A stretch of 64,000 nucleotides of DNA from Alteromonas sp. RKMC-009 (GTDB lineage: Bacteria > Pseudomonadota > Gammaproteobacteria > Enterobacterales > Alteromonadaceae). Within the stretch, counting starts at the first letter, position 1; each line of letters begins with the position of its first letter. The notes under the pieces are model-generated. The model was given only the letters and a program-made list of their open reading frames with translations, searched no databases and had not been told where the DNA came from. The position numbers and the translations under genes were made by a program. Below, one piece after another: positions 5,148 to 25,794 of the stretch. The stretch is taken from NCBI RefSeq assembly GCF_003584565.2, contig NZ_CP031010.1, positions 3,968,001-4,032,000 on the forward strand. The letters run 5' to 3'.

Positions 5148-6821
5148 ATGGCAGCAACAAAAGACTTACGCCGCACCAAAACACTTCTGTTTGATATTTT
5201 AAAGCCGGAAGCAGGCTTTTTTTACCTGGCTATCGCATATGGCCTGATGATTGGTTTACTGACCCTCGCCGTACCGTTTGCAGTACAAACCCTTATCAAC
5301 ACCGTGGTTTATACCGCTTCAGTCAGCGCGGTTCTGGTGATCAGTACAATCCTGTTCTGTACCCTGCTGCTGTACGGATTATTCAGTGCCCTGAGAACAC
5401 GGGTTATGGAATATTATGAGCGCCGGATCTATAGCCGGCTGACTGCCGATCTTGTACTGAAAACCATTCAGGCCCCTCATCAGTTTTTTGAAGGCCGGAA
5501 AAACAGCACGATAACTCATCGTTTTTTTGAGGTAATGACCTTTCAGAAAAATATGCCATCACTGATGGTAGACGGTTTCGCACTTCTGCTTCAGATGCTG
5601 GTAGGTATTACACTGGTTTCTTTCTATCACCCGTTCCTGTTTGTCTTTAACGTAGTAATCATCATTTCTATGTATTTTATCTGGCGGATGTTAAGTACAC
5701 CTGCGAAAAATACAGCTATCGATTTGTCTGATTCTAAATATGCCACCGCAAAATGGCTCAGTGAAATTTCCTCTGCTCACGTATTTTTCAAATCCAGCCG
5801 GCATCTTGACCATGCTGCTGAGAAAACGGAGGCTATCATCAGTCGTTATGTGAATTGTCACGCCGGACATTTCACTTTTACCTTTTCCCAGACCGTACTC
5901 TTCCTGATCGTCTATGCGCTGGCCAGCTCCGCCCTTCTGGGACTGGGTGGTGTGCTGGTTGTACAGGAGCAATTATCTGTTGGTCAGCTTGTTGCAGCCG
6001 AACTGATCATGTCTGCGGTATTTCTTGGTATTTCACGGTTCAGTGTATATCTGAACCTGTATTATGAATTGTATGGTGCGGCAGAGAAGCTTAATGCCGC
6101 ACTGAATATTCCTCAGGAAGATGTACAGTCTTCCGATAACGAAACCTTTACCCGTAACGATCTCCACTTCCGTCAGACTGTGCTGGTTCAGCAAAACGAG
6201 TCTGTGGAAATTGATATGGCCTTGCGGGAAAACGGTAAATACTACGTCGTTACCGGGCAGGCATGGCAACAACGTAAACTGATGACGGTTCTGAAACGTT
6301 ATGAAACGCCGGAGTCTGGCTGGGTAGAACTGGGAGGCCTTGCATTAGCGGATTACCAGACCAGCGAGCTGCGTCAGGCCATTGCCATTGTTGACCGCTC
6401 TCTCATTATTGAATGTTCAATTCTTGAATATTTGCGCATGGATGCCCCGGATGCTTCCGAAAAAGCGATTCAGGAAATCTTTCGCGAACTGCAACTGGAA
6501 CCGACACTGGCGAGACTGGAAGACGGCTTGCAAACCAGTCTGTCACAGTTGGGCCATCCCCTACAGCCGATGGAGTTTTTGTTATTGAAACTGGCTGCCG
6601 CCCTGTTGTCGAAACCGGGAGTAATTGTGCTGAACCAGCACTTTGATGCCATTCCCGAAGCATACAGATATAAAATTCTGAAATACCTCGATACCCAACC
6701 GGTCACGGTGATGTACTTCACCAGCAGTCCGATTCAGGAAGTCTTTGATGCCACCATTGTGTTAAATGGTGACTCACAACTGCTTTCCCATGATGTGCTC
6801 GCTGACAAGGAGGAATTGTGA
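5148..6821 (+). CDS. ABC exporter-like protein with a degenerate nucleotide-binding domain
   Basis: A 557-residue protein with an N-terminal ABC-exporter membrane domain (about residues 20-310, several hydrophobic segments) and a C-terminal ABC-ATPase-like region. The ATPase motifs are gone. Where the Walker A P-loop should lie the sequence reads TGQAWQQRK (369-377); where the LSGGQ signature should lie it reads LQPMEFLLLKL (about 473-483); and the Walker B acidic pair is replaced by Asn496-Gln497 in VIVLNQHFDAI. It is the first gene of an operon with HlyD- and TolC-like genes, the layout of a type I secretion system. ATP-driven export by this protein alone therefore seems unlikely; it might pair with another ATPase, work without ATP, or be a scaffold. 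The frame is intact, so this is not a simple pseudogene. Confidence 0.8.
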   Translation: MAATKDLRRTKTLLFDILKPEAGFFYLAIAYGLMIGLLTLAVPFAVQTLINTVVYTASVSAVLVISTILFCTLLLYGLFSALRTRVMEYYERRIYSRLTADLVLKTIQAPHQFFEGRKNSTITHRFFEVMTFQKNMPSLMVDGFALLLQMLVGITLVSFYHPFLFVFNVVIIISMYFIWRMLSTPAKNTAIDLSDSKYATAKWLSEISSAHVFFKSSRHLDHAAEKTEAIISRYVNCHAGHFTFTFSQTVLFLIVYALASSALLGLGGVLVVQEQLSVGQLVAAELIMSAVFLGISRFSVYLNLYYELYGAAEKLNAALNIPQEDVQSSDNETFTRNDLHFRQTVLVQQNESVEIDMALRENGKYYVVTGQAWQQRKLMTVLKRYETPESGWVELGGLALADYQTSELRQAIAIVDRSLIIECSILEYLRMDAPDASEKAIQEIFRELQLEPTLARLEDGLQTSLSQLGHPLQPMEFLLLKLAAALLSKPGVIVLNQHFDAIPEAYRYKILKYLDTQPVTVMYFTSSPIQEVFDATIVLNGDSQLLSHDVLADKEEL

Positions 6822-7855
6822 TGAATTACTCTGATCAGCAGGAATTCATGAGCAAAATGAAGACGCTTTCGCAGCAGACTGTGCCGACCTGGTACAGAAA
6901 AGTGGCGTATATGCTCTTTCTTCTTATCGCAGTCACCGCCGCAATATTGTACTTCGCGCCCTGGCAGCAAACGGCTTACGGCACGGGAACAGTAAGCACG
7001 CTTAATCCGGCTGACCGCGCTCAGCCCATCTCCGCACTGGTCCCCGGGCAAATAAAAACCTGGCATGTGCGGGAAGGACAAAAAGTAAAAGAAGGCGATC
7101 CCATTGTAACCCTGGTCGACACCGATAAAGCGCTGGTTGAACGCCTTCAGGCCCAGGTAAAAGCCGCGGAGCTGAAACTGGATGCTGACCTGATGGCAGT
7201 GGAAAATGCCCGCATAAACCTGGAGCGTCAGAAACGGCTAAATAAAGAAGGTCTGGTCTCGGTCCGCGACATTGAAGTGGCGGAAAACACGTTACAGGAA
7301 AGGCTGGCGACAGCCGCTCAGTCTGAGCAAAGCCGGAACTCGCTGAACTCGTCGCTGGCAAGGCAATCTACTCAGACCAAGTACGCACCTCAGGATGGTA
7401 CTGTGACCCAGTTGCACTCCGGTGGTTTATCCACGCTGGTCAGTGCGGGCGCAGTACTCGGGTATTTTATTCCTGACGGTGTCGAGCGCATGGTAAGGGT
7501 GAAAGTAAACGGACTGAATGCACCGCTGGTCACAACAGGCCGGAAGGTGCGGCTGCAATTTGAAGGCTGGCCAATCTTCCAGTTCAGCGGCTGGCCGGGC
7601 ACATCCATAGGTACATTCGGTGGCAGAGTGGCGATTGTTGAACCGGTAGCAGACCGCAACGGACTGTTTAATGTATGGATTGAACAGGATCCGCTGGAAA
7701 AGCCCTGGCCGGAAGAAAACTTTGCCCGTCTGGACAGCCGGGTCAATGCCTGGATCTTGCTGGAAGAAGTCAGTATTGGCTACGAACTCTGGCGACAGCT
7801 GAATAACTTCCCGCCTGAAAATGTCAGGTCAGATACAGAACAAACACCACGGTAA
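6821..7855 (+). CDS. HlyD-family membrane fusion protein
   Basis: A periplasmic adaptor of 344 residues with one N-terminal membrane segment (about residues 25-46) and a short cytoplasmic start. It has a lipoyl/barrel-sandwich half-motif around VPGQIKTWHVREGQKVKEGD, a coiled-coil hairpin rich in Glu/Gln/Leu, and a second half-motif around APQDGTVTQLHSG. It would bridge the inner-membrane partner and a TolC-like channel. The ATG at 6821 overlaps the stop of the upstream ABC-like gene (TGATG) and has AAGGAGGA at 6807-6814, which is a near-ideal ribosome site and indicates coupled translation; a GTG three bases upstream is less likely. The C-terminal part, with GWPIFQFSGWPG, resembles adaptors of peptide exporters. 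Confidence 0.85.
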   Translation: MNYSDQQEFMSKMKTLSQQTVPTWYRKVAYMLFLLIAVTAAILYFAPWQQTAYGTGTVSTLNPADRAQPISALVPGQIKTWHVREGQKVKEGDPIVTLVDTDKALVERLQAQVKAAELKLDADLMAVENARINLERQKRLNKEGLVSVRDIEVAENTLQERLATAAQSEQSRNSLNSSLARQSTQTKYAPQDGTVTQLHSGGLSTLVSAGAVLGYFIPDGVERMVRVKVNGLNAPLVTTGRKVRLQFEGWPIFQFSGWPGTSIGTFGGRVAIVEPVADRNGLFNVWIEQDPLEKPWPEENFARLDSRVNAWILLEEVSIGYELWRQLNNFPPENVRSDTEQTPR

Positions 7856-7861
7856 GTATGC

Positions 7862-9277
7862 ATGTTGAGGTATTTTTCTTTTTTTACTGCCATTTTTCTG
7901 CTGCTGTGCCTGAACGCTCAGGCGCAACAACAACCACCGACTGCAGAAACAGTACTGCAGTCTATTCTGCACAATCATCCTAAGCTGCTTGAGCTTGAAG
8001 CCAAAGGTGGTCAGCGCCGGCAGGTACTGGCTTACGCTGAAGCTGCATTTGATGTGCAACTTGAGCAGGATACAGCCCTGCGCACCAGTGGTTACTACAG
8101 CGGTGACTATCTGTCTCAGCGTGTTGTCAATCCGCTGGGAACCGCCAATGCTAAGGTGAAAGCCGAATACCGTATCGGTAACGGTACTTTCCCCTATTAC
8201 GAGCGTTACTATGAAACGCTGACCGGTGGTGAAGCCAGTATCGGTTTTGCCATGTCGTTGCTGCAAAACCGGGAGACGGATAAAAAACGGATGGCCATTG
8301 AAGATGCCAGAGTGAGTATGTCTCAATGGGATGCAGAAGCCGCCCTGGCCCTGAACGAACTGGTTTACAAAGGCTTATCGGCTTATCTGGACTGGTACGA
8401 AAGTCATCTGAATGAGCAGATATACGCAGCACTGGTGAAGACCACCGAGACCCGTGGAAACGCCATTAATACCAGGGTTGAAGAAGGGGATCTTGCGCGC
8501 ATCACCCAGACAGAATTTGAGGTCACAGTGATGCAGCGTAATCTGGCTTTACAGGATGCCAGAAGGAAGGCCGCACAGGCGAGAGAGAAGTTGGCTTACT
8601 ATTACCGCGATGAGCAATTCCGGCCGGTCAGCACAGCAACCCTGAATACTGTCCCCGGTGATATTCAATGGCCCTGGATGAGTGCTGCGGTTAAACCCGC
8701 GTTGCTGCAGAGCCTGATTGCACAGCACCCTGCTCTCACCAGTTTGCAGGCAGAAATGCAACTGGCGAAAAACAAGCTGCGACTGGCAAAGAACGCGCTC
8801 TTACCCACGCTGGATATTGAAGCAAAGCTGGCGCGGGATATCGGCAGCGGGCCGGAGAACCTGAACGGTACAGAAACAAAAGTCGGCCTGCAATTTTCCA
8901 TGCCGCTGGGCCGTCGCCAGGCGAAGGCTGATGAGGCAAAGGCTTCGTTAAAGTTGCGTGAAATTGAAGCCGTGGTTCAGACCACACAGGATGCACTTGA
9001 ACGGGATATGGCAGTGGGTTTACAGGCACTGCAGTACGGCAAGACCATGGCTGAACTGCAACAGCAGCAGGCGGTATTAACGGAAAAGCTGTTCAGTCAG
9101 GAGCAGAAACGGTTTGAGATGGGGGACAGTGACCTGTTCTTACTAAACAGCCGTGAATCACAGGCAATATCAGCGCGTCTTAACGCGGTGAAAGCAGAAA
9201 TAGAAATTAAGCGGATTGTACTGGGAATCTACTACCAGACCGGTTTGCTCGCCCAAACGCCTGATACATCGCTGTAA
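7862..9277 (+). CDS. TolC-like outer membrane efflux protein
   Basis: A 471-residue outer-membrane factor with a signal peptide ending near AQA (residue 21). The remainder is long amphipathic helices with repeated Leu/Gln/Glu/Ala heptads in two halves, as in TolC trimers that form a trans-periplasmic channel. It lies 6 bases after the HlyD-like gene and closes the three-gene export operon. The proximal ribosome site is weak, so translation is probably coupled. A hairpin terminator follows at 9284-9307 and is shared with the convergent GH3 gene. The exported substrate is not encoded in an obvious way next to the operon. Confidence 0.85.
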   Translation: MLRYFSFFTAIFLLLCLNAQAQQQPPTAETVLQSILHNHPKLLELEAKGGQRRQVLAYAEAAFDVQLEQDTALRTSGYYSGDYLSQRVVNPLGTANAKVKAEYRIGNGTFPYYERYYETLTGGEASIGFAMSLLQNRETDKKRMAIEDARVSMSQWDAEAALALNELVYKGLSAYLDWYESHLNEQIYAALVKTTETRGNAINTRVEEGDLARITQTEFEVTVMQRNLALQDARRKAAQAREKLAYYYRDEQFRPVSTATLNTVPGDIQWPWMSAAVKPALLQSLIAQHPALTSLQAEMQLAKNKLRLAKNALLPTLDIEAKLARDIGSGPENLNGTETKVGLQFSMPLGRRQAKADEAKASLKLREIEAVVQTTQDALERDMAVGLQALQYGKTMAELQQQQAVLTEKLFSQEQKRFEMGDSDLFLLNSRESQAISARLNAVKAEIEIKRIVLGIYYQTGLLAQTPDTSL

Positions 9278-16186: not shown

Positions 16187-18220
16187 GTGTCTATCTGGTA
16201 CGGGGTAGCATATTACGATGAGTACATGCCCTACGATCGTCTCGATAAAGACATTGCCATGATGAAAGCGGCCGGGATAAATATGGTGCGCATCGGCGAG
16301 TCGACCTGGGGCACCATGGAGCCAGGGGAGGGAGAATTTGATTTCAGTCATCTCGACAGGGTGCTCGATGCTATGCACAAAGCCGGTATCAGGGTGATTA
16401 TCGGTACACCGACTTATGCCATTCCCGCATGGATGGCAAAGCAATACCCTGATGTGCTTGCAACCACCGCAGCCGGTAAGAATAAGTATGGCGCACGGCA
16501 GAATATGGATATAACCCATCCTGATTTTCGCCGGCTGGCTGAGAGAATGATAAGGGCCATGCTGACCCATGTAAGCGATCATCCCGCGATTATTGGCTAT
16601 CAGGTCGATAATCAGACCAAGCATTATAATACCAGCGGAAAACATGTTCAGGCGGCATTCGTTGAGCACCTGAAACAAAAGTTCGGCACCCTTGAAGCAA
16701 TGAATGACGCCTTTGGCCTGAACTACTGGAGCAACCGCGTAAACAGCTGGGATGAATTCCCTGAGGTTCACGAATCGGTATACACCGCACCGGTAACATC
16801 AATCAACGGCAGTGTGACTGCCGCATTTGCTGCTTTTCAGCGCTCTCTGGTAACAGAGTATCTGGCCTGGCAGGCCGGTATCGTGAATGAATTTAAGAAA
16901 CCTGGGCAATTCGTTACACAGAACTTCGATCTCGACTGGCGCGGCTATTCTTATGGTATTCAGTCTTCTGTCGATCATTTTGAGGCAGCAGCAGCGATGG
17001 ACATTGCCGGTGTGGATATTTACCACCCCGGTCAGCATCAGCTCACGGGCAACGAAATTGCTCTCGGGGGTGATCTTGCCCGCAGCATGAAAGACGGACA
17101 AAACTACTTTGTCATCGAAACCCAGGCGCAGGGCTTCCCGCAGTGGACGCCCTATCCGGGGCAGCTAACTTTGCAGGCTTTCAGTCACATTGCCAGCGGT
17201 GCCAATATGGTGGCTTACTGGCACTGGGCTTCGACCCACAATGCCATTGAAACCTACTGGAAAGGTCTGCTAAGCCAGGACTATGCAGAAAACGCCACTT
17301 ACAACGAAGCCCGCACCGTGGGCAACACACTGGCAAAACTGGGCGACAAAATAACCTCACTGAATAAGCAAAACGAGGTTGCCGTCTTGTTCAGCAACGA
17401 AGCTCTCATCGCATTCAATGAGTTTTCCTTCGGCTGGGGCGCACCGCAAAAATACAATGACGTACTGCGCCCTTTCTATGACAGCCTTTACCGGGCCAAT
17501 ATCGAAACAGATTTTATTGATCCGTCAAACTTCGCAGACAAAGCCGCGAACTACAAAATGATTGTGATCCCCGCCCTGTATTCTGCCAGCGATACGCTGC
17601 TGGAAGCCATTTCGGACTACGTTAAAAATGGCGGTCATATTGTGGCGACGTTCAAACATGGCTTCACCGATGAAAATGTGAAAGTGCGTGCTTCGGTCCA
17701 GCCCGGCAACATGACTGATATTTTCGGCATCCGTTACTCGCAGTTTGTTCACCCTGAGTGCGCTTCGCTGAACACCGCCATCATGCCGGAAAGCATTGCC
17801 GCTGAACCACTGAAATGGTGGATGGAGCTGGTTACCGCTGACACAGCTGACGTACTGGCAACTTATGAACACCCTGTTTGGGGCGACTATGCGGCTGTCA
17901 CACGTAATCAGGCGGGAAAAGGAACGGCAACTTACATAGCAACGATGCCGTCAGACAACCAGATTGACGCTCTGTTACGCCAGGCGGCAAACGATGCCGG
18001 CGTCACTTTGTCAGACAACCAGTTCCCGGTTATCGAGAAAAAAGCAGTAAATTTGGCAGGCAACACGCTCCACTTTGTTTTTAATTATTCTGAAAACGAA
18101 AGGGAAGTGAAGATTGATAATCTGAAGGGTACGGATCTGCTGACCGGCTCTTCTGTGTCAGGTCAAAGCCCCGTTACCCTGCCCCCCTGGGGAGTTGTGA
18201 TAATCGAAGAAAAACGTTAA
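16187..18220 (+). CDS. Glycoside hydrolase family 42 protein with Gln at the acid/base site
   Basis: A 677-residue GH42-type enzyme, normally a cytoplasmic beta-galactosidase; there is no signal peptide. The N-terminal TIM barrel starts with YGVAYYDEYMP and contains MVRIGESTWGTMEP; the middle and C-terminal domains (trimerisation and beta domains) follow. The nucleophile Glu311 is present in FVIETQAQGFPQW. The acid/base position, which in GH42 normally reads DNE, is DNQ here (Gln143, codon CAG at 16613-16615). Either the enzyme is inactive or it uses another proton donor. Start is GTG at 16187 with CAGGGAG upstream. The IS110 element ends just before it, so its original promoter has probably been displaced. 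The LacI gene follows. Confidence 0.85.
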   Translation: MSIWYGVAYYDEYMPYDRLDKDIAMMKAAGINMVRIGESTWGTMEPGEGEFDFSHLDRVLDAMHKAGIRVIIGTPTYAIPAWMAKQYPDVLATTAAGKNKYGARQNMDITHPDFRRLAERMIRAMLTHVSDHPAIIGYQVDNQTKHYNTSGKHVQAAFVEHLKQKFGTLEAMNDAFGLNYWSNRVNSWDEFPEVHESVYTAPVTSINGSVTAAFAAFQRSLVTEYLAWQAGIVNEFKKPGQFVTQNFDLDWRGYSYGIQSSVDHFEAAAAMDIAGVDIYHPGQHQLTGNEIALGGDLARSMKDGQNYFVIETQAQGFPQWTPYPGQLTLQAFSHIASGANMVAYWHWASTHNAIETYWKGLLSQDYAENATYNEARTVGNTLAKLGDKITSLNKQNEVAVLFSNEALIAFNEFSFGWGAPQKYNDVLRPFYDSLYRANIETDFIDPSNFADKAANYKMIVIPALYSASDTLLEAISDYVKNGGHIVATFKHGFTDENVKVRASVQPGNMTDIFGIRYSQFVHPECASLNTAIMPESIAAEPLKWWMELVTADTADVLATYEHPVWGDYAAVTRNQAGKGTATYIATMPSDNQIDALLRQAANDAGVTLSDNQFPVIEKKAVNLAGNTLHFVFNYSENEREVKIDNLKGTDLLTGSSVSGQSPVTLPPWGVVIIEEKR

Positions 18221-18229
18221 ATTTTGCCC

Positions 18230-18243
18230 TGAATGCGCTTACA
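18230..18243. promoter_or_regulatory. Candidate LacI-family operator before the regulator gene
   Basis: TGAATGCGCTTACA matches the LacI-family pattern TGNAANCGNTNNCA with one mismatch and resembles the word at 14379. It lies between the GH42 stop and the lacI start, suggesting autoregulation. Confidence 0.45.
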
Positions 18244-18323
18244 ATTGCTCAGAACAATAAGAAAAGTGGTCGGGCGCATTGTTTACCGGGGCATCCCGTA
18301 CCCTACACGCGGAAGTGCAAAAG

Positions 18324-19346
18324 ATGAGTAAAGCAACAATTGGTGATGTGGCAAAAGCCGCCGGTGTTTCAAAGAAAACGGTCTCCCGGGTGTTAAATAA
18401 CGAACCCGGAGTGCGCAAAGAAACCCGTGATGCCGTTACCACCGCGATCAAAAAATTAGATTATATTCCTAACCTGAATGCCCGCAGGTTAAGAACCAAT
18501 CAATCTTATCTGATTGGTGTACTGTATATCGATTATCCTACCAACTTTTACGGCAGTCTTATCCTGAACGGCGCGATAAAAGCTTGCGATAAACTGGGCT
18601 ACGATTTATTGATTCGTCCCTTTGCATCAGAAAATCCCGCAGGTGAAATTGCCACTACCTTGCGGCACATGGTTGAACGTTCCAACGTTGACGGATTCAT
18701 TGTCGTACCGCCTTTGTGCGAAGATCAGGCTGTTATCGCAGCACTGGAAGAAACGGGCACGCCTATTGTCAAAATTGCATCTCTGGATGACACATCCTCG
18801 TATTGCCTGCACAGTGATGAGGTAGAGGGCGCGCAACTGGCTGTGGAACACCTGATTAATCTGGGTCACAGCAAAATCGGCTTTCTCAACTACCTGGTAG
18901 GTCACGCAGCCGGTAAATGGCGTTACGAGGGCTATCAGCAGGCGCTGACAAAATACGGCATCGAAGAAAATCCGGACTGGGTTGCACAGTTTGTATACGG
19001 TGAGAACACGTTGGAACAGGCCTGCCGGAAATTACTGTGTCAGGAAAACCGCCCCACCGCTATTTTTACCGCCAACGACGCTTCTGCAGCCGTGGTGTAC
19101 AGGATTGCCTCCCAACTGAAATTGCGTATCCCGTATGATTTGAGTGTGGTGGGTTTCGATGACGACCCTGCAGCCCTTAACCTGTGGCCACCGCTTACCA
19201 CTATTAAGCAACCTGTTGCCGAACTTGGCTACAATGCGGCGACCATACTGATTGAACAGATCATCCGTCACCAGGCGAAACGGGAATTACCCCTTTCACC
19301 TTCTGAACTGGTCGTCCGTAACTCAACCGGTCCGTTGCTGGAGTAA
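18324..19346 (+). CDS. LacI-family transcriptional regulator
   Basis: A 340-residue repressor-type regulator. Residues 4-25 form the classic helix-turn-helix and hinge start (TIGDVAKAAGVSKKTVSRVL), followed by a periplasmic-binding-protein-like sensor domain with FTANDASAAVVYRIA and VVGFDDDPAALNLWPPLTTI. Start at 18324 is the ATG directly before the HTH; an upstream in-frame TTG at 18279 would add residues not seen in the family. Being next to GH42 and near GH3 and a TonB receptor, it probably controls this glycan locus in response to a sugar released by the enzymes. Two candidate operators (14379-14392 and 18230-18243) fit this. Confidence 0.88.
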   Translation: MSKATIGDVAKAAGVSKKTVSRVLNNEPGVRKETRDAVTTAIKKLDYIPNLNARRLRTNQSYLIGVLYIDYPTNFYGSLILNGAIKACDKLGYDLLIRPFASENPAGEIATTLRHMVERSNVDGFIVVPPLCEDQAVIAALEETGTPIVKIASLDDTSSYCLHSDEVEGAQLAVEHLINLGHSKIGFLNYLVGHAAGKWRYEGYQQALTKYGIEENPDWVAQFVYGENTLEQACRKLLCQENRPTAIFTANDASAAVVYRIASQLKLRIPYDLSVVGFDDDPAALNLWPPLTTIKQPVAELGYNAATILIEQIIRHQAKRELPLSPSELVVRNSTGPLLE

Positions 19347-19351
19347 GCACA

Positions 19352-19849
19352 ATCAGACAACAACCTTCGGAACTGGAAAATGCATTAAGCCGCAAGTCCC
19401 GCTGTCAGTACCGGCTGATATGGATTCTGCTATTCACGTTACTGACTCTGGCGGTAGTGTTCGGTTACACCTGGCTGAATTTTGATGATTTGTATGTGCC
19501 TTACCGCAGCGCCTACCCCAATCTCAGCACGCTTTTTTCACCACTTAACATGGTGGTAATTACCCTGCTGGTTGTAGTAAACGGATTTGCTATCTATCAA
19601 ATCCGCCATGCCCGTGAGCAACTGGCGATCAGCGCTTATGTTTTACTTAATAAAATGGATGAACCGCAGCAATCGTCTCATCCCGACTGGCTGAATGCTT
19701 TTCTTGCCGCTGCAGGACTTCCCGCTGATTATTCCTTTGTTCTGCTCAAGAAAATGAAAATGCGGCATTTCATGACGATGTCCGGCGCTATCAATAAAGC
19801 GGTCAGCGAACACAAAGCCGCCTGGATTGCACTCAGCCGCCAATATTGA
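19352..19849 (+). CDS. Small two-helix membrane protein of unknown function, start uncertain
   Basis: The protein has two hydrophobic segments, one around LIWILLFTLLTLAVV and a second around MVVITLLVVVNGFAIY, then a soluble tail of about 80 residues. The only standard start in the frame, GTG at 19457, would cut off most of the first membrane segment. Reading upstream the frame is open into the lacI gene and contains no ATG, GTG or TTG. The best placed codon is ATC at 19352, eight bases after a GGAG that overlaps the end of lacI. Initiation at AUC would be unusual, so a sequence error or another rare start is possible. I recognise no family. It sits between lacI and the GTPase operon. Confidence 0.45.
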   Translation: MRQQPSELENALSRKSRCQYRLIWILLFTLLTLAVVFGYTWLNFDDLYVPYRSAYPNLSTLFSPLNMVVITLLVVVNGFAIYQIRHAREQLAISAYVLLNKMDEPQQSSHPDWLNAFLAAAGLPADYSFVLLKKMKMRHFMTMSGAINKAVSEHKAAWIALSRQY

Positions 19850-19984: not shown

Positions 19985-20518
19985 ATGGCGAAAGATAAGA
20001 ATAATGATGCACCTCAGGCATCAACAGCTGACAAATCAGAATTAGGTCAGCTACGTGAAATTTTGTTCGGCCAGTCCAGCCGGGATTTTCAGCAGCAACT
20101 CGCCTCTCTGGATGAAAAACTGGAAAGTAATTTTTCAGCATTGAATCAAAAGCTGGAAAATCATGTGGCTGCGCTGAATAAAACCATTGAAACACAGTTT
20201 GCTGCACTGTCTGAACAACTCTCAGCCGACAATACACAACACCAGCAAGCCCAGGAAAATCTGAAAGGCCTTCACGATACACTGAAATCTGAGCTGGAAA
20301 TGGCTGAAGCCGCCGCGCAGGATGACACCAGCAAACTGGAAAGCAAGCTATCCAAAGAAATGGATGCCATGGAAACCTTGTTCAACAAACGTCACGAAGC
20401 GCTGTTAGAGCGTTTGCAGCAAGTGACAGAAGAACTGTCTTCCAGCAAAACCGACCGCAAAACCCTGGCAAGCCTGCTGTCTACTATGGCCTCGAATCTT
20501 GCCACTGATCAACCCTGA
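19985..20518 (+). CDS. Coiled-coil protein, first gene of the GTPase operon
   Basis: A soluble, strongly charged protein of 177 residues with no signal peptide or membrane segment. Residues from about 20 to 160 are nearly continuous heptad-type coiled coil; LNQKLENHVAALNKTIETQ shows the pattern. SD sequence AGGAGG precedes the ATG at 19985. It lies five bases before the membrane OmpA-like gene and belongs to a tight block with a Ras-like GTPase. I recognise no named family. A scaffold or an effector/adaptor for the GTPase or the membrane protein is plausible, but that is inference from position and shape only. Confidence 0.75.
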   Translation: MAKDKNNDAPQASTADKSELGQLREILFGQSSRDFQQQLASLDEKLESNFSALNQKLENHVAALNKTIETQFAALSEQLSADNTQHQQAQENLKGLHDTLKSELEMAEAAAQDDTSKLESKLSKEMDAMETLFNKRHEALLERLQQVTEELSSSKTDRKTLASLLSTMASNLATDQP

Positions 20519-20523
20519 CGCCC

Positions 20524-22311
20524 ATGAGCAATTTTGTGCCGCCAACGGATGAGGATGCGCACACAATGGACGACGTCAGGTCGTTAATCATTGGTGGGGA
20601 TGAAAAATTCGTAGAAAATATTGTCAGACGCAATGCAAAAGGCATGGTGTCTGATGTGGTATCTGAAGCACTGAATGAGCGTGAGAGTCAGGATGGCTCA
20701 GTGAACAAAGTGCTGGTCCCCCTGATCGAAAAATCACTGCACCGCTCAGTGGAAGCCAACAGTGATAAGATTGTCGGCGCACTCTACCCTCTTGTCGGCT
20801 CGCTGATCAGAAAAGCCGTATCAGCGTTTCTCATCGAATTCATTGAGCGTACAAACACCCTTATTGAACACAGCTTTTCAGCTAAAAGTGTGAAGTGGCG
20901 CTTTAAAGCCTGGCGCTCAGGTGTCACCTATTCTGATTATGTTGCTTCGCAAATTTATCAATATCAGGTGCATCAGGTGCTGGCTATTCACCGTGAAACC
21001 GGCACCCTGTTAAATAGTGTCACCAGTCATCCGGGAAATGCGAAAGACGGTGACCTGATTTCTTCCATGCTGGTTGCTATCAGCGATTTTGTCGCTGATG
21101 CATTCAGTCAGGATATTCAGGCAGAAGAAACCGAACTGGGAGAAATTAAAACCGACGATTTTACCCTGCTTATCAAGGTCGGTCCCCAGGTGATCCTTGT
21201 CGCTGCCGTCAGCGGTCATGTGTCGCCACGCATGCGACATAAACTGCAGGACACTCTGGAAGAGTTTCATCACTTTTATCAGTCGCCTCTGCAAAAATAT
21301 CAGGGCGACAACGGGCCGTTCGCCACCAGCGATGCCATGCTGCAGGAATGCCTGATCAGTGAGCAAAAAACGACGCAGGAAAAGAAAAAACGGGCCGGTG
21401 CCGGTGTATTTATTCTCGCCGGACTATTGGTTGTTGCCGGCTATCTGGCATTTTTACGCATCGACCTTGCCATCACGTCATCCACCATCGCTAAGAGTGA
21501 GCCTCCGGCCGGCATTGTGATGCTGAACACACAAACAGACGGCAATCAGATTATTCTCTCGGTATTAAGAGATCCGGCTGCCACCGGTGTAGCGCAATGG
21601 CTTGCGGGGCTCGACATTGACTCATCCGTTGTCGACATTAAAGAAACGCCGTTTGAGTCAAAGGATGACCGTCTTATCCCGGCAAAGATACAACAGCTGA
21701 CCGCTCGTTTTCCTGCTCTGACGTTCACCAACGATGAACAGCCGGCCCTGTCCGGCACAATCAGCACTGGTGAATGGCAACGATTCCTCCGTGCTCTGCA
21801 CAGCATTGCGGGCATTGAAACCGTATTCCCGGATACCACCAAAGTAGTTCTGGAAGAAAGCACTCCTGTTAACGATGCATTAGCACTTAATGCTCTGGCC
21901 GGGTCTCTGGCAACTACACTGTCAGGTTACACGTTGTTCTTTGATATGAACCAGTCCCGGTGGTCGAAAGCGAATGATGCGACTATTGGCGATATTGCCC
22001 AAACCATCATTAACCTGCAAAATATCGCTGAACAATCAGGGCAAACCCTCAGTGTATTTATTCTCGGTGGCAGCGATAATTCGGGTACATCAGTCAAAAA
22101 TATGCTATTGAGTGAATCACGCGCCCAGTCAGTGAAACAAGCTCTGACTAAAGCAGGCGTGGAACACGCTGTGCTGCACACCAAAGGTTTGGGACAACTG
22201 GATTTAGCCCGCGGCAGTAATAGCCGGATGGTATTCTTTCATGCTCTGTTAACACCTGCAGAGGCTGGTAAAGGGAAGAAAACAGGATCAGAAGAAGGTA
22301 ACCGTCAGTGA
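20524..22311 (+). CDS. Membrane protein with large cytoplasmic region and C-terminal OmpA-like domain
   Basis: A 595-residue protein. Residues 1 to about 290 have no signal sequence and should be cytoplasmic; one membrane helix follows (GVFILAGLLVVAGYLAF, about 296-312); the rest is predicted periplasmic. The C-terminal roughly 120 residues look like an OmpA/MotB peptidoglycan-binding domain: SDNSGTS, then LLSESRAQSVKQAL, then KGLGQLD, matching TDxxG, LSxxRA and GxGE positions. Between helix and OmpA domain is a BON-like or other alpha/beta stretch. So the protein can link cell-wall contact to a large cytosolic region. Its stop overlaps the start of the GTPase gene, arguing for coupled production. 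The N-terminal region matches no family I recognise. Confidence 0.75.
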   Translation: MSNFVPPTDEDAHTMDDVRSLIIGGDEKFVENIVRRNAKGMVSDVVSEALNERESQDGSVNKVLVPLIEKSLHRSVEANSDKIVGALYPLVGSLIRKAVSAFLIEFIERTNTLIEHSFSAKSVKWRFKAWRSGVTYSDYVASQIYQYQVHQVLAIHRETGTLLNSVTSHPGNAKDGDLISSMLVAISDFVADAFSQDIQAEETELGEIKTDDFTLLIKVGPQVILVAAVSGHVSPRMRHKLQDTLEEFHHFYQSPLQKYQGDNGPFATSDAMLQECLISEQKTTQEKKKRAGAGVFILAGLLVVAGYLAFLRIDLAITSSTIAKSEPPAGIVMLNTQTDGNQIILSVLRDPAATGVAQWLAGLDIDSSVVDIKETPFESKDDRLIPAKIQQLTARFPALTFTNDEQPALSGTISTGEWQRFLRALHSIAGIETVFPDTTKVVLEESTPVNDALALNALAGSLATTLSGYTLFFDMNQSRWSKANDATIGDIAQTIINLQNIAEQSGQTLSVFILGGSDNSGTSVKNMLLSESRAQSVKQALTKAGVEHAVLHTKGLGQLDLARGSNSRMVFFHALLTPAEAGKGKKTGSEEGNRQ

Positions 22312-22799
22312 TACAAAAAAAGATCTGTCTGCTAGGCCCGACCGGAGTGGGTAAAACCAGCCTGGTAAGACAGTTCGTCGATGGCATTTTTTCAGAGAAA
22401 TATCTCACTACTATCGGCGTAAAAATCGACAAAAAAGAAGTCACCGCGGGCGATAAAACGGCCCAGCTGCTTATCTGGGATATTGAAGGGGTTGACCGCT
22501 ATTGTGGTTTTAATCCACGCTACCTGCGTGGTGCCGCAGCCTTTGTCATTGTGGTTGACCAGACCCGCTCCCAGTCGTTGCTTGAAGGTATGGATATTTA
22601 TGAGTCGGCGCGGGCAGAATTTCCTGATACGCCGGCCTTTTTTGTCGTCAATAAAGCAGACCTTCCCAGTGAATGGTACTGGAGTGAAGACGAAGTCGCT
22701 GAACGTGAAAATCTGTTCAGTGCCGCCATTAAAACCAGCGCCAAAACCGGCGAAAATGTTGAGCGACTCTTTCAGGAGTTAGCGGAACTTACGGTGTAA
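22308..22799 (+). CDS. Ras/Rab-like small GTPase
   Basis: A 163-residue single-domain GTPase. The G1 loop is GPTGVGKT (10-17), the G2 Thr is Thr35 in YLTTIGV, G3 is WDIEG (57-61), G4 is NKAD (115-118) and G5 is TSAK (143-146). The spacing is that of Rab/Ras proteins rather than of Era- or FtsY-type bacterial GTPases. The residue after the G3 Gly, the catalytic Gln61 of Ras, is Val62, so intrinsic hydrolysis may be slow and partner-dependent. There is no C-terminal Cys motif. The GTG start (22308) overlaps the stop of the OmpA-like gene by four bases and has GAAGAAGG upstream. Position suggests action at the membrane with that protein. It is akin to MglA or Rup-type prokaryotic GTPases, not assigned to either. 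Confidence 0.85.
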   Translation: MIQKKICLLGPTGVGKTSLVRQFVDGIFSEKYLTTIGVKIDKKEVTAGDKTAQLLIWDIEGVDRYCGFNPRYLRGAAAFVIVVDQTRSQSLLEGMDIYESARAEFPDTPAFFVVNKADLPSEWYWSEDEVAERENLFSAAIKTSAKTGENVERLFQELAELTV

Positions 22800-22801
22800 A
22801 T

Positions 22802-24913
22802 ATGGACATTTTCCACCTCAATGCACTTGGCATCACGGACTGTGCATTATTTGAGCTGAATGAGCGTGATGAGCTGAATTGCCTCACACCAACGGTGCAT
22901 TGGGTAACCGACCTTGTGAAGGTCAACGAACTGTCACTGGATATTGAATCCGTTCGCAGTCTGTTTCTCGAAGATTTTCTTATTGATGCCGGTGATTGCT
23001 GGGCGACTTCTCTCCCTGCAAACCTGACTTCAGGCTTCTGGACCGAAACCACAGAACATGAATCCCTGCGTCTTGAGGCTATCGCTATCAACGATGGAAA
23101 AGGCGGACGATTCCTGGCCATCAAGAACGTCAATAAAGAATTTGCCTACCGCCAGCAATCCCTGCAATCTGCCAGAGAATTACTGCTAACCCACCATGCG
23201 GTGATCAGCCAGCAGGATTACCTTACTGAAAAATTACAGAAAGCGCTGAAAGAAGCGCGGGAATGTAAGGGCCAGCAGCAGGCCATACGCCAGACTATCC
23301 ACCACCTCAGTACAGGCGTGGTGATACTGGACGCCAACAAACAACTGTTTCTGGATAATGGCGTGGCACGGCAGTTTTTCCGTGCACAGAATGCAGATGT
23401 CTGCGTTCACCGTTTGTTGCAACTGATAAAAGATGTTCAGCTGGATGAGATGTTTTTATCGACGCTGGAAGAAAGACAAACCGCCTGGCGCGGCGAAGTA
23501 TTCTGGATGAACTCTCCTGATGGTGGCCGGTGGCTGCAACTTACCATCGCACCGGTGATGCAGCATATTCATGTTTCTCACTGGGTATTTTTGCTGACCG
23601 ACATGTCACATATCCAGCACACCAGTCAGTACAGTCCGGTGCAGCTGGACAAAGATTCACTCACTCAAACCCTTTCCCGTCAGGCATTGAAAAAAGAAAT
23701 GACAGCCTGGGTCGAGAAGGACGAAAACTTTGGCCTGTTTGTGATTGATATCTGTGAATTCAGAAAGGTCAATGAAAGCCTGGGCTACCGCTCCGGCGAC
23801 GATATTTTAAAGAGTGTGGCAAAGCGTTTACACGGCTTTGTTGGTGAAGAAGGGCGTCTGGCCAGAATTGGCGGAAACGAATTTGCGGTGATGACACCGG
23901 TGAGTGCAGGTAATGAGACTGCATTGTACGATATCGCCAGAGGTATAACCGGTGTTCTCGAACACACCTACCTGTCTTTAGGCAGTATTCAAACCACCTT
24001 ATCCACCAACATTGGCATGGCGACGTTCCCTGAACATGCCAAATCGCCTGAAGGTTTGATGCAGAACGCCGGCTACGCCCTGCAATTCGCCAAATACGCA
24101 GGTAAGAATAAAGTCACACTGTTCCACCCCATGCACAAGCAGAAACAGGTTGAATTGGCCGAAATGGAAGCCGCGTTTGCCAGAGCGATTGCGGAAGATA
24201 CGCTGGATATTTACCTTCAGCCTATTGTCGACTTATCTTCCGGCAAGCTGCTTAAATATGAAGCCCTCGCCCGCTGGAAGAGAAACGATGAGTATGTGCC
24301 TCCGGATGTATTCATTTCGCTGGCGGAACGTTCTGAGCTTATTTTCCCCTTTGGTGAATGGTTGCTGGATAAAGTGTGCAGCACGGCCAGACGAATGATT
24401 CGCTATGTGCCTGATGTGCGAATTGCCATGAACATTTCCGGCCGCCAGATCATATCGCAGGATTTTACCGGCAATATTCAGGCAGCGATTAAAAGACACG
24501 GTATTTCAGCATCTAACCTGGCCATTGAAATTACTGAAACCTCGTTCATCAACAATTTAAATACTGTTGCGGCGGTGCTGAAAACGTTACGGAATATGGG
24601 TGTTACCATATCGATTGACGATTTTGGTACAGGATTCAGTTCGCTAGTTTACTTAAAACAGTTGCCTCTGGATGAGCTGAAAATTGACCGCTCATTTATT
24701 CAGGATGCTATGACCAGTGAAGGCGACCGGGCGATAATCAAAGCCATTTTAGGGCTTGCCGGCAATCTGAATTTGCAGGTGGTGGCTGAAGGTGTGGAAA
24801 CCGGCGAACAGCAACACTTCCTGATTGATGAACAGTGCGTGTCCGGTCAGGGTTATTTATTCGACCATCCCTTACCGGTAGAAGAGATTGAAAAGCGCTT
24901 CGCAGCCGGCTGA
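22802..24913 (+). CDS. PAS-like/GGDEF/EAL c-di-GMP protein with altered GGDEF motif
   Basis: A 703-residue cytoplasmic protein with no membrane segments. A non-conserved N-terminal region and coiled coil lead to a PAS-like domain (about 165-275), a GGDEF domain (about 285-445) and an EAL domain (about 455-700). The diguanylate cyclase motif reads GGNEF with Asn359 instead of Asp/Glu, which argues against cyclase activity. The EAL side looks complete: YEALARW (Glu487), MNISGRQ, EITET, DDFGTGFSS, LKIDRSF and VAEGVE. The protein is therefore predicted to degrade c-di-GMP, possibly with GTP sensed by the altered GGDEF domain. It begins two bases after the GTPase stop and closes that operon, suggesting that GTPase state feeds into c-di-GMP levels. 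Confidence 0.88.
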   Translation: MDIFHLNALGITDCALFELNERDELNCLTPTVHWVTDLVKVNELSLDIESVRSLFLEDFLIDAGDCWATSLPANLTSGFWTETTEHESLRLEAIAINDGKGGRFLAIKNVNKEFAYRQQSLQSARELLLTHHAVISQQDYLTEKLQKALKEARECKGQQQAIRQTIHHLSTGVVILDANKQLFLDNGVARQFFRAQNADVCVHRLLQLIKDVQLDEMFLSTLEERQTAWRGEVFWMNSPDGGRWLQLTIAPVMQHIHVSHWVFLLTDMSHIQHTSQYSPVQLDKDSLTQTLSRQALKKEMTAWVEKDENFGLFVIDICEFRKVNESLGYRSGDDILKSVAKRLHGFVGEEGRLARIGGNEFAVMTPVSAGNETALYDIARGITGVLEHTYLSLGSIQTTLSTNIGMATFPEHAKSPEGLMQNAGYALQFAKYAGKNKVTLFHPMHKQKQVELAEMEAAFARAIAEDTLDIYLQPIVDLSSGKLLKYEALARWKRNDEYVPPDVFISLAERSELIFPFGEWLLDKVCSTARRMIRYVPDVRIAMNISGRQIISQDFTGNIQAAIKRHGISASNLAIEITETSFINNLNTVAAVLKTLRNMGVTISIDDFGTGFSSLVYLKQLPLDELKIDRSFIQDAMTSEGDRAIIKAILGLAGNLNLQVVAEGVETGEQQHFLIDEQCVSGQGYLFDHPLPVEEIEKRFAAG

Positions 24914-24945: not shown

Positions 24946-25794
24946 TTATAACCCGCCTATGCCCAAATGGCTGGCATGAAATTGCAGGTGTTCTTCGATA
25001 AAAGAGGCAATGAAGAAATAGCTGTGGTCATAGCCTTCATGCATATTCAGCGTCAGTTGCGTATCACTCTTCTGAGCTGCATTAATCAGAGCCTGAGGCT
25101 TTAATTGTTCTTCAAGAAACTGATCGGCACGTCCCTGCTCCACCAGTAACGGAATGTAGTGTTGCTTCTCAGCGAGCAGAATGGCTGCATCATAAGCTTG
25201 CCATGCTGATTTATCGTCACCCAGATAGCCGCCCAGCGCCTTTTCACCCCATGGGCAATCTGACGGATTCGCAATCGGACTGAACGCTGATACTGACACA
25301 TACTGCTGCGGATTACGCAAGCCGATAACCAGTGCGCCATGTCCGCCCATGGAATGCCCGCTGATGGCCTTCTCACGGGTCACCGGCAGGTTTGCTTCAA
25401 TCAGAGCGGGTAACTCCTGCGTGACATAGTCATACATGTGATAATGTTCATTCCAGGGTGCCTGTGTCGCATTAACATAAAAGCCGGCCCCTTTACCCAT
25501 GTCATAGGCTTTGTCTGCATCGTCAGGCACATCATCTCCCCTGGGGCTTGTGTCCGGTGCCACGATCGCCATACCCAGCTCGGCAGCCATCTTCATTGCG
25601 CCGGCTTTCTGCATGAAGTTTTCATCAGTACAGGTTAATCCTGACAGCCAGTATAAAACCGGAACGGGATTTTCTGCGCTGGCAAAAGGCGGCAGATAAA
25701 CCGCAAAGGTCATTTCACAATTTGTTGTTTTTGCTGCATGGCGGTAGCGGCAATGACGTCCACCAAATGCACGATTTTCACTGATTAATTCCAT
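24946..25794 (-). CDS. fghA: S-formylglutathione hydrolase
   Basis: A 282-residue alpha/beta hydrolase that splits S-formylglutathione to formate and glutathione in formaldehyde detoxification. The triad is Ser148 in SGHSMGGHG, Asp224 in GRADQFL and His257 in GYDHSYFF; YWLSGLTCTDENF is a family hallmark. The start at 25794 has a modest GAGAAA ribosome site. The usual partner, a glutathione-dependent formaldehyde dehydrogenase, is not adjacent, so it may lie elsewhere or this may act as a general esterase. It is convergent with the GGDEF/EAL gene, with only 32 bases between the stops. Confidence 0.93.
   Translation of the reverse strand: MELISENRAFGGRHCRYRHAAKTTNCEMTFAVYLPPFASAENPVPVLYWLSGLTCTDENFMQKAGAMKMAAELGMAIVAPDTSPRGDDVPDDADKAYDMGKGAGFYVNATQAPWNEHYHMYDYVTQELPALIEANLPVTREKAISGHSMGGHGALVIGLRNPQQYVSVSAFSPIANPSDCPWGEKALGGYLGDDKSAWQAYDAAILLAEKQHYIPLLVEQGRADQFLEEQLKPQALINAAQKSDTQLTLNMHEGYDHSYFFIASFIEEHLQFHASHLGIGGL

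Follow-up and report, generated by a model that had tools for sequence, protein, structure and literature searches.

An operon of the Group 1 Rup type in Alteromonas sp. RKMC-009, with a predicted longin-type membrane protein and a predicted c-di-GMP phosphodiesterase as output

The four-gene operon

Four genes at positions 19985 to 24913 of the window, a stretch of 64,000 nucleotides from the 5.01-Mb genome of Alteromonas sp. RKMC-009 (contig NZ_CP031010.1), form an operon that we assign with near certainty to the Group 1 Rup systems, each built around a small Ras-like GTPase. The system is real and widespread, and its kind has been described though not characterised. The window's list of open reading frames (ORFs) confirms exactly the same-strand set drawn by an earlier reading of the letters (the sequence-only reading), with intergenic gaps of 5, -4 and 2 bases.

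19985..20518, + strand: gene 1, cytoplasmic coiled-coil protein of 177 aa, the coiled-coil component of the Rup system (ORF; heptad periodicity; homologues)
20524..22311, + strand: gene 2, inner-membrane protein of 595 aa with a cytoplasmic N-terminus and a periplasmic OmpA/Pal domain (ORF; Pfam; structure model)
22308..22799, + strand: gene 3, Rup-type small Ras-like GTPase of 163 aa with a GTG start (Pfam Ras, 100 bits)
22802..24913, + strand: gene 4, output protein of 703 aa, ordered PAS-like domain, PAS-like region, degenerate GGDEF, EAL (ORF; Pfam; AlphaFold2, AF2)

In 2014 Wuichet and Sogaard-Andersen described Group 1 Rup GTPases as accompanied by three conserved genes. One encodes a cytoplasmic coiled-coil protein, the second a protein that combines a conserved domain with a transmembrane helix and a C-terminal OmpA domain, and the third an output protein, either a GGDEF-EAL fusion or a histidine kinase; an invariant glutamine in the N-terminal region of the output was proposed to replace one missing from the GTPase G3 region (PMC4316618). 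As far as the cited passages of that paper go, those four components are the ones found here and composition does not differ: a small single-domain Ras GTPase with no G3 glutamine, a coiled-coil neighbour, a neighbour with a transmembrane helix and OmpA domain, an output with an N-terminal glutamine, and no MglB. The sequence-only reading had recognised no described system of this composition, and was to give up its claim of novelty if the same operon had been published; it has been, as the Group 1 Rup neighbourhood (PMC4316618), and a novel composition is rejected. The same passages state that no Group 1 member had been characterised by 2014. In the open-licence literature searched we found no later experimental paper on Group 1 Rup, and the name in this sense otherwise appeared only as a mention in the relevant passage of PMC4915359.

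A GTPase without the catalytic glutamine

Gene 3 belongs to the Ras family (Pfam, 100 bits against a cut-off of 21.6), and its single domain of 163 aa falls within the Rup size range of 150-240 aa. No other single-domain match to the Ras family occurs in the genome, where three more matches fall in frames of 899, 608 and 333 codons. Alignments place a valine where Ras has its catalytic glutamine:

22491..22493, + strand: GTPase residue 62 (Val) at the Ras Gln61 position, catalytic glutamine absent (alignments)

Val62 sits in the sequence WDIEGVDR of the G3 region. Relatives were compared at 113 loci with a GTPase ORF, which gave 106 unique GTPases after removal of seven duplicates; three outliers (L098, L099 and L100) were kept in the counts. 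A contig search confirmed 585 loci, of which the best 80 were taken; Nostocales and Thiotrichales abound among these, and the counts are therefore no census. At the Gln61 position these GTPases carry Glu (57), Asn (16), Ser (9), Ala (6), Thr (6) and others, and glutamine in none of the 105 with a residue there. The G3 aspartate is present, the W-D pair being invariant in all 106. One Blastocatellia locus (L153, 6001-7133) holds two Rup-type GTPase genes in tandem.

The output enzyme and its constant module

Gene 4 can be divided as follows:

22802..23281, + strand: residues 1-160, a PAS-like domain with its signalling helix, the module that stays constant across Rup outputs (AF2, predicted local distance difference test 92.3; PAS-type folds; family alignments)
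23165..23167, + strand: Q122, the sole invariant residue of the module (module alignments)
23654..24112, + strand: GGDEF domain with the degenerate motif GGNEF, predicted inactive as a cyclase (Pfam; motif alignment)
24173..24871, + strand: EAL domain with intact catalytic residues, predicted c-di-GMP phosphodiesterase (Pfam; motif alignment)

Pfam scores are 84 bits for GGDEF and 225 bits for EAL. The third position of the GGDEF motif is Asn in all 15 Alteromonas proteins (14 relatives and the window), a departure from GG[DE]EF, and in the same 15 all seven EAL active-site motifs are intact. Judged by these motifs gene 4 is very probably an active phosphodiesterase, and the output of the Alteromonas operon is expected to be c-di-GMP breakdown. 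The protein types named in the sequence-only reading thus held up: the coiled coil by the heptad test given below, and the OmpA-like C-terminus, Ras-type GTPase and GGDEF-like/EAL protein by Pfam, with the reservation that the GGDEF motif itself reads GGNEF.

The glutamine column of the module was invariant in two alignments (25 of 25 rows, then 44 of 44). In a larger set of 138 copies from 100 loci, two of them truncated and lacking the column, all 136 copies with a residue there have Gln, and the next-best column reaches 93%. Clustering at 50% identity sorts the copies of 80 aa or more into 49 clusters. The Gln stands in two contexts, Q..N in 85 copies and Q..R in 53, subtypes that rest on a crude pattern. 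As an alignment result, the case for an invariant glutamine is now much stronger. We infer that Q122 is the invariant column of the logo in figure 4A of PMC4316618, so far as that figure can be matched.

A module-bearing ORF lies within 1.1 kb downstream of the GTPase at 100 of the 106 unique loci. Typed with profiles made from Pfam-checked members, the outputs include a histidine kinase at 75 of these 106 loci, an HD-GYP protein at 11 and a GGDEF-EAL protein at two. Pfam also identifies class III cyclase domains behind the module at five loci (L129, L132, L146, L154 and L156); in the first of these (Desulfonema magnum, 6504-8811) two module genes are adjacent, one with a class III cyclase and the other with a SpoIIE phosphatase. 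On a Mesorhizobium plasmid a coiled coil, an OmpA protein, a 'Rab family GTPase' and a cyclase stand in a row, bearing the motifs RDLLFG (coiled coil), WDLAGEDD (GTPase) and QQKAYE (cyclase). ORFs of 100-145 aa consisting of the module only occur beside a module-bearing output at 27 loci (26 cyanobacteria by record title and one Cloacimonadota), and six ORFs carry two copies, which favours the idea that the GTPase-binding part is useful without an attached enzyme. Across Rup loci, then, the aligned module is constant and the enzyme is exchanged.

Among the histidine-kinase loci, gammaproteobacterial ones (L079, L082, L084, L090-L095) often show a gene for a response regulator ahead of the coiled-coil gene and/or, downstream, one of about 105 aa that looks HPt-like, both named from sequence. 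Another operon with a histidine kinase output (L174) comes from a record titled 'MAG: Klebsiella pneumoniae', a label that looks doubtful.

The wall-anchored protein and its predicted longin domain

Three parts of gene 2 were mapped:

20959..21363, + strand: predicted longin-fold domain, residues 146-280, cytoplasmic (predicted structure)
21400..21456, + strand: about residues 293-311, the only transmembrane segment, its N-terminal side cytoplasmic by the positive-inside rule (hydropathy; model helix 291-324)
21862..22263, + strand: OmpA/Pal-type peptidoglycan-binding domain, about residues 447-580 (Pfam; predicted structure)

The sequence KKKR precedes the one hydrophobic segment, which starts near residue 293. 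The OmpA domain is matched in Pfam at E 1.9e-7, and its D518 and R533 sit at what we take to be the usual ligand positions. In structure comparison Pal/OmpA structures rank first for this periplasmic domain and MotB lower.

The sequence-only reading had drawn attention to the large N-terminus of gene 2, and rightly: this region carries most of the conserved positions of the family and includes the predicted longin domain. There the model follows the longin fold order bbabbbaa, and among the closest structural matches is Fuzzy, which forms part of a Rab guanine nucleotide exchange factor (GEF). On the strength of the model we consider a longin-type fold highly likely. The domain probably binds the GTPase; that it acts as a GEF is a more tentative suggestion, to which we give a little less than an even chance.

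The coiled-coil protein and a shared motif

A Pfam search placed gene 1 in no family above its cut-off. Over residues 34-165 its hydrophobic heptad power is 3.25 (mean of shuffled sequences 0.52), a value reached by none of 5000 shuffles. Genes 1 and 2 carry similar short motifs:

20051..20071, + strand: LREILFG, residues 23-29 of gene 1 (alignment of relatives)
20575..20595, + strand: VRSLIIG, residues 18-24 of gene 2, similar to LREILFG (family alignments)

Relatives of gene 1 have [VIL]R[DE]ILFG near the N-terminus, and the form R[DE][IL]L[FVIL]G recurs across phyla in the coiled-coil partners (Alteromonas, other loci, Mesorhizobium). A pattern like LR.LL.G occurs within the first 140 residues of 77 of 88 proteins with the longin region. 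The resemblance suggests that both proteins may dock on a common partner. The coiled-coil proteins also have a C-terminal element in common, KTDR..LA.L in the window with a similar one in the Mesorhizobium protein.

Conservation and co-occurrence

Sixty genomes were surveyed: our own, 35 of the same genus and 24 of the same order but other families. Gene 2 at full length is present in our own and 15 of the 35 congeners and in none of the 24, and the GTPase is in the same 16 genomes. All four genes keep their order at 15 of the 16 Alteromonas loci, the window included, and a homologue of gene 1 is found at all 16. One locus (G017) has a shortened GTPase ORF of 129 aa. An esterase gene comes next after the operon in each of the 15 relatives examined; the position of the locus is therefore fixed, the operon having been patchily lost or gained.

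From other searches came 83 unique loci with at least 4.5 kb of upstream and at least 1.5 kb of downstream flank. The Gln module was found at 78 of these, a longin-region protein at 70, a motif-bearing coiled-coil ORF at 65, and all three at 63. Among 369 gammaproteobacterial genomes, 35 have the GTPase (E<=1e-12); at E<=1e-5, 29 have the longin region and 25 the Gln module, and 28 and 24 of the latter two sets fall within the GTPase set (Fisher 2e-34 and 3e-28, relatedness uncorrected). All 25 Gln-module genomes also have the longin region, and the one outside the GTPase set (G236) has both partners with no GTPase at E<=1e-12. In another genome (G342) the longin gene and the GTPase lie on different contigs, so the link between them is more than adjacency. 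Gene order and co-occurrence in gammaproteobacterial genomes, which the sequence-only reading had proposed to check, agree with it, and the four genes are a real conserved unit.

Around the operon in the window, the esterase gene (24946-25794) converges on it from downstream. Just upstream is a 130-aa ORF with a predicted membrane segment (19457-19849, + strand), whose homologues in the same place (about 50% identity) were seen only in the two closest relatives (L184 and L185) among 15 loci examined. Also upstream, within 16187-19346, lie a LacI-family regulator (Pfam) and what is presumably a GH42-like beta-galactosidase.

Proposed mechanism

From gene order, co-occurrence, residue conservation, predicted folds, the intact EAL site and the degenerate GGDEF we infer a scheme in which all protein contacts, the GEF and GTPase-activating (GAP) activities, the direction of control and the nature of the signal are conditional. 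In this best overall explanation, which we hold to be evenly balanced, the Rup GTPase relays a cell-envelope signal to a c-di-GMP phosphodiesterase. Gene 2 would span the inner membrane, its OmpA domain gripping peptidoglycan and its longin-type domain facing the cytoplasm as a platform on which the GTPase is caught and its loading with GTP promoted; the platform would probably be dimeric, and the coiled-coil protein might assist it by way of the LR.LL.G element common to the two. Alone, the GTPase would hydrolyse GTP poorly, because it lacks Ras Gln61. GTP-bound Rup would bind the PAS-like domain and signalling helix of gene 4, whose Gln122 would complete the GTPase active site in trans, so that effector and GAP would be one protein; from the alignments we lean slightly towards such a supply of glutamine by the module. 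Binding and release of Rup would shift the signalling helix and set the EAL activity, lowering c-di-GMP near the wall-bound complex. The sequence-only reading had likewise joined GTPase, wall-anchored receptor and c-di-GMP enzyme into one switch. That much is the natural reading; c-di-GMP as the defining output does not survive, most loci having a histidine kinase (75 of 106) and some a cyclase.

More speculatively, and with rather more doubt than confidence, Group 1 Rup operons could be the bacterial equivalent, anchored to the wall, of the longin-Rab control known from eukaryotes. In that case the state of the peptidoglycan or envelope would drive the OmpA protein, a transmembrane longin GEF or platform; among bacterial proteins the Rup GTPase would be the closest cousin of Rab/Ras; and the swappable enzymes (EAL, HD-GYP, histidine kinase, cyclase, SpoIIE) would share a PAS-like effector/GAP module that gives the catalytic glutamine in trans, for which TBC-type Rab GAPs offer a likeness. 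Many bacterial phyla would then have a longin-GTPase pair within a single operon, and the partnership would extend beyond Asgard archaea and eukaryotes.

Several results weigh against these proposals or limit them. Gene 4 as sole GAP is awkward, because one Alteromonas genome (G025) keeps genes 1-3 without gene 4, the downstream esterase coming directly next, and no Gln module was found elsewhere in that genome. At 20 of the 83 loci with enough flank at least one partner is lacking. An earlier, looser alignment had Gln in 107 of 108 rows; the exception, from the outlier locus L098, has Arg, in a protein with no match to the module profile at 1e-3. The profiles behind the Gln counts were built from Gln-invariant alignments and could miss strongly diverged Gln-less copies. 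AF2 places Q122 inside the signalling helix, where a conserved residue can be structural. As for the longin domain, no significant longin-family profile match was found (best Fuz_longin_1, E 0.17, in one of 30 members searched), and we therefore claim a fold and not membership of a named longin family. There was no longin chain among seven PDB sequence matches at E<=10 and none among the 50 rows listed by Foldseek; longins make up eight of the 50 VIA rows. The domain was modelled solely inside the whole 595-residue protein (predicted TM-score 0.43), and longins are part of a wide PAS/GAF superfamily, according to the cited section of PMC4917890.

Alternative explanations

The longin-type protein may only place the GTPase at a wall-bound membrane site, with exchange intrinsic or promoted by the coiled coil and the GTPase serving as a localisation tag for the output enzyme. 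Passages in PMC6864590 and PMC10933270 describe longin and roadblock domains that serve as binding platforms without exchange activity, and at 65 of 83 loci the GTPase keeps a coiled-coil partner, whereas the presence of Fuzzy among the closest structural matches argues for exchange. We think such a passive scaffold unlikely; the present data fit it and the GEF version alike.

Alternatively, the invariant glutamine could serve dimer packing in a PAS-to-output signalling helix and not be a catalytic finger, the PAS-like domain being a sensor and the GTPase acting on something else. PAS-helix linkers often bear conserved signalling motifs, and AF2 puts Q122 in a long helix (111-159), about 12 residues past the last strand. 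However, this glutamine (100%) stands well above every other residue of the PAS core and the helix in conservation, the next reaching 93%; it is kept in stand-alone copies with no output to drive; and every GTPase examined lacks the very Gln that would be supplied. We regard a structural role as doubtful, with a slight preference for supply in trans.

A polarity switch like MglA/MglB, the comparison made in the sequence-only reading, is highly improbable. The GTPase superfamily is the same and longin and roadblock folds are related (PMC10933270, in part), but Rup and MglA are described as separate families, with Rup not coupled to MglB and with an MglA G3 region that lacks the conserved aspartate (PMC4316618, passages cited above). 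The roadblock domain of MglB type (Robl_LC7) had no match in the host genome at E<=0.001, control matches appearing in three of 14 genomes, and no polar or motility gene was found in the operon. Membership in MglA is rejected, given the absent roadblock and the G3 aspartate present here. Nor did anything found point to the pole or flagellar site once suggested, the periplasmic domain matching Pal/OmpA before MotB.

That the four genes are chance neighbours, or merely co-transcribed with unrelated functions, has next to nothing in its favour beyond the swapping of the GGDEF-EAL gene for other enzymes elsewhere and its loss in G025, and is refuted by conservation, since only the enzyme is exchanged while the Gln module stays (78 of 83 loci), the order holds at 15 of 16 Alteromonas loci, all partners are kept at 63 of 83, and co-occurrence is strong (Fisher 2e-34 and 3e-28, relatedness uncorrected).

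Significance and comparison with known systems

To the 2014 account we would add a predicted longin fold for the domain of unknown function, a PAS-like fold for the Gln region, HD-GYP, cyclase and SpoIIE outputs, stand-alone Gln modules and the degenerate GGDEF of Alteromonas; some of these may already be in supplementary table S2 of PMC4316618. The mechanism of Group 1 Rup is now sharply testable. With this locus, found in a marine Alteromonas that grows fast, two old questions come within direct reach of experiment: what turns off a Ras-type GTPase that lacks its catalytic glutamine, and by what route a receptor anchored in the wall is linked to second-messenger enzymes in bacteria. Should the longin prediction prove right, a bacterial longin-GTPase pair joins the debate on the origin of Rab machinery; a 2016 review, in the section cited, credits an archaeon with being the first prokaryote in which longin domains were found (PMC4917890).

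By analogy, MglA/MglB and the actinobacterial conservons likewise equip a bacterial Ras-like GTPase with a dedicated operon or partners, and the 2014 authors themselves compare Rup to conservons (PMC4316618, in the passages cited). Here the GTPase family is another, there is no roadblock protein, the output enzyme is within the operon, and completion by Gln rather than of the Arg type is proposed. The eukaryotic longin Rab GEFs Mon1-Ccz1, Hps1-Hps4 and Inturned-Fuzzy differ in that here one longin domain, with a possible GEF role, sits in a wall-anchored membrane protein, gene 2, without significant sequence similarity to longins. In E. coli RdcA/RdcB-DgcE, a GTPase directly controls a c-di-GMP enzyme, as is proposed here; by the cited part of PMC6510439, RdcA is instead dynamin-like and acts on the MASE1 membrane domain of the cyclase, with no OmpA or longin partner.
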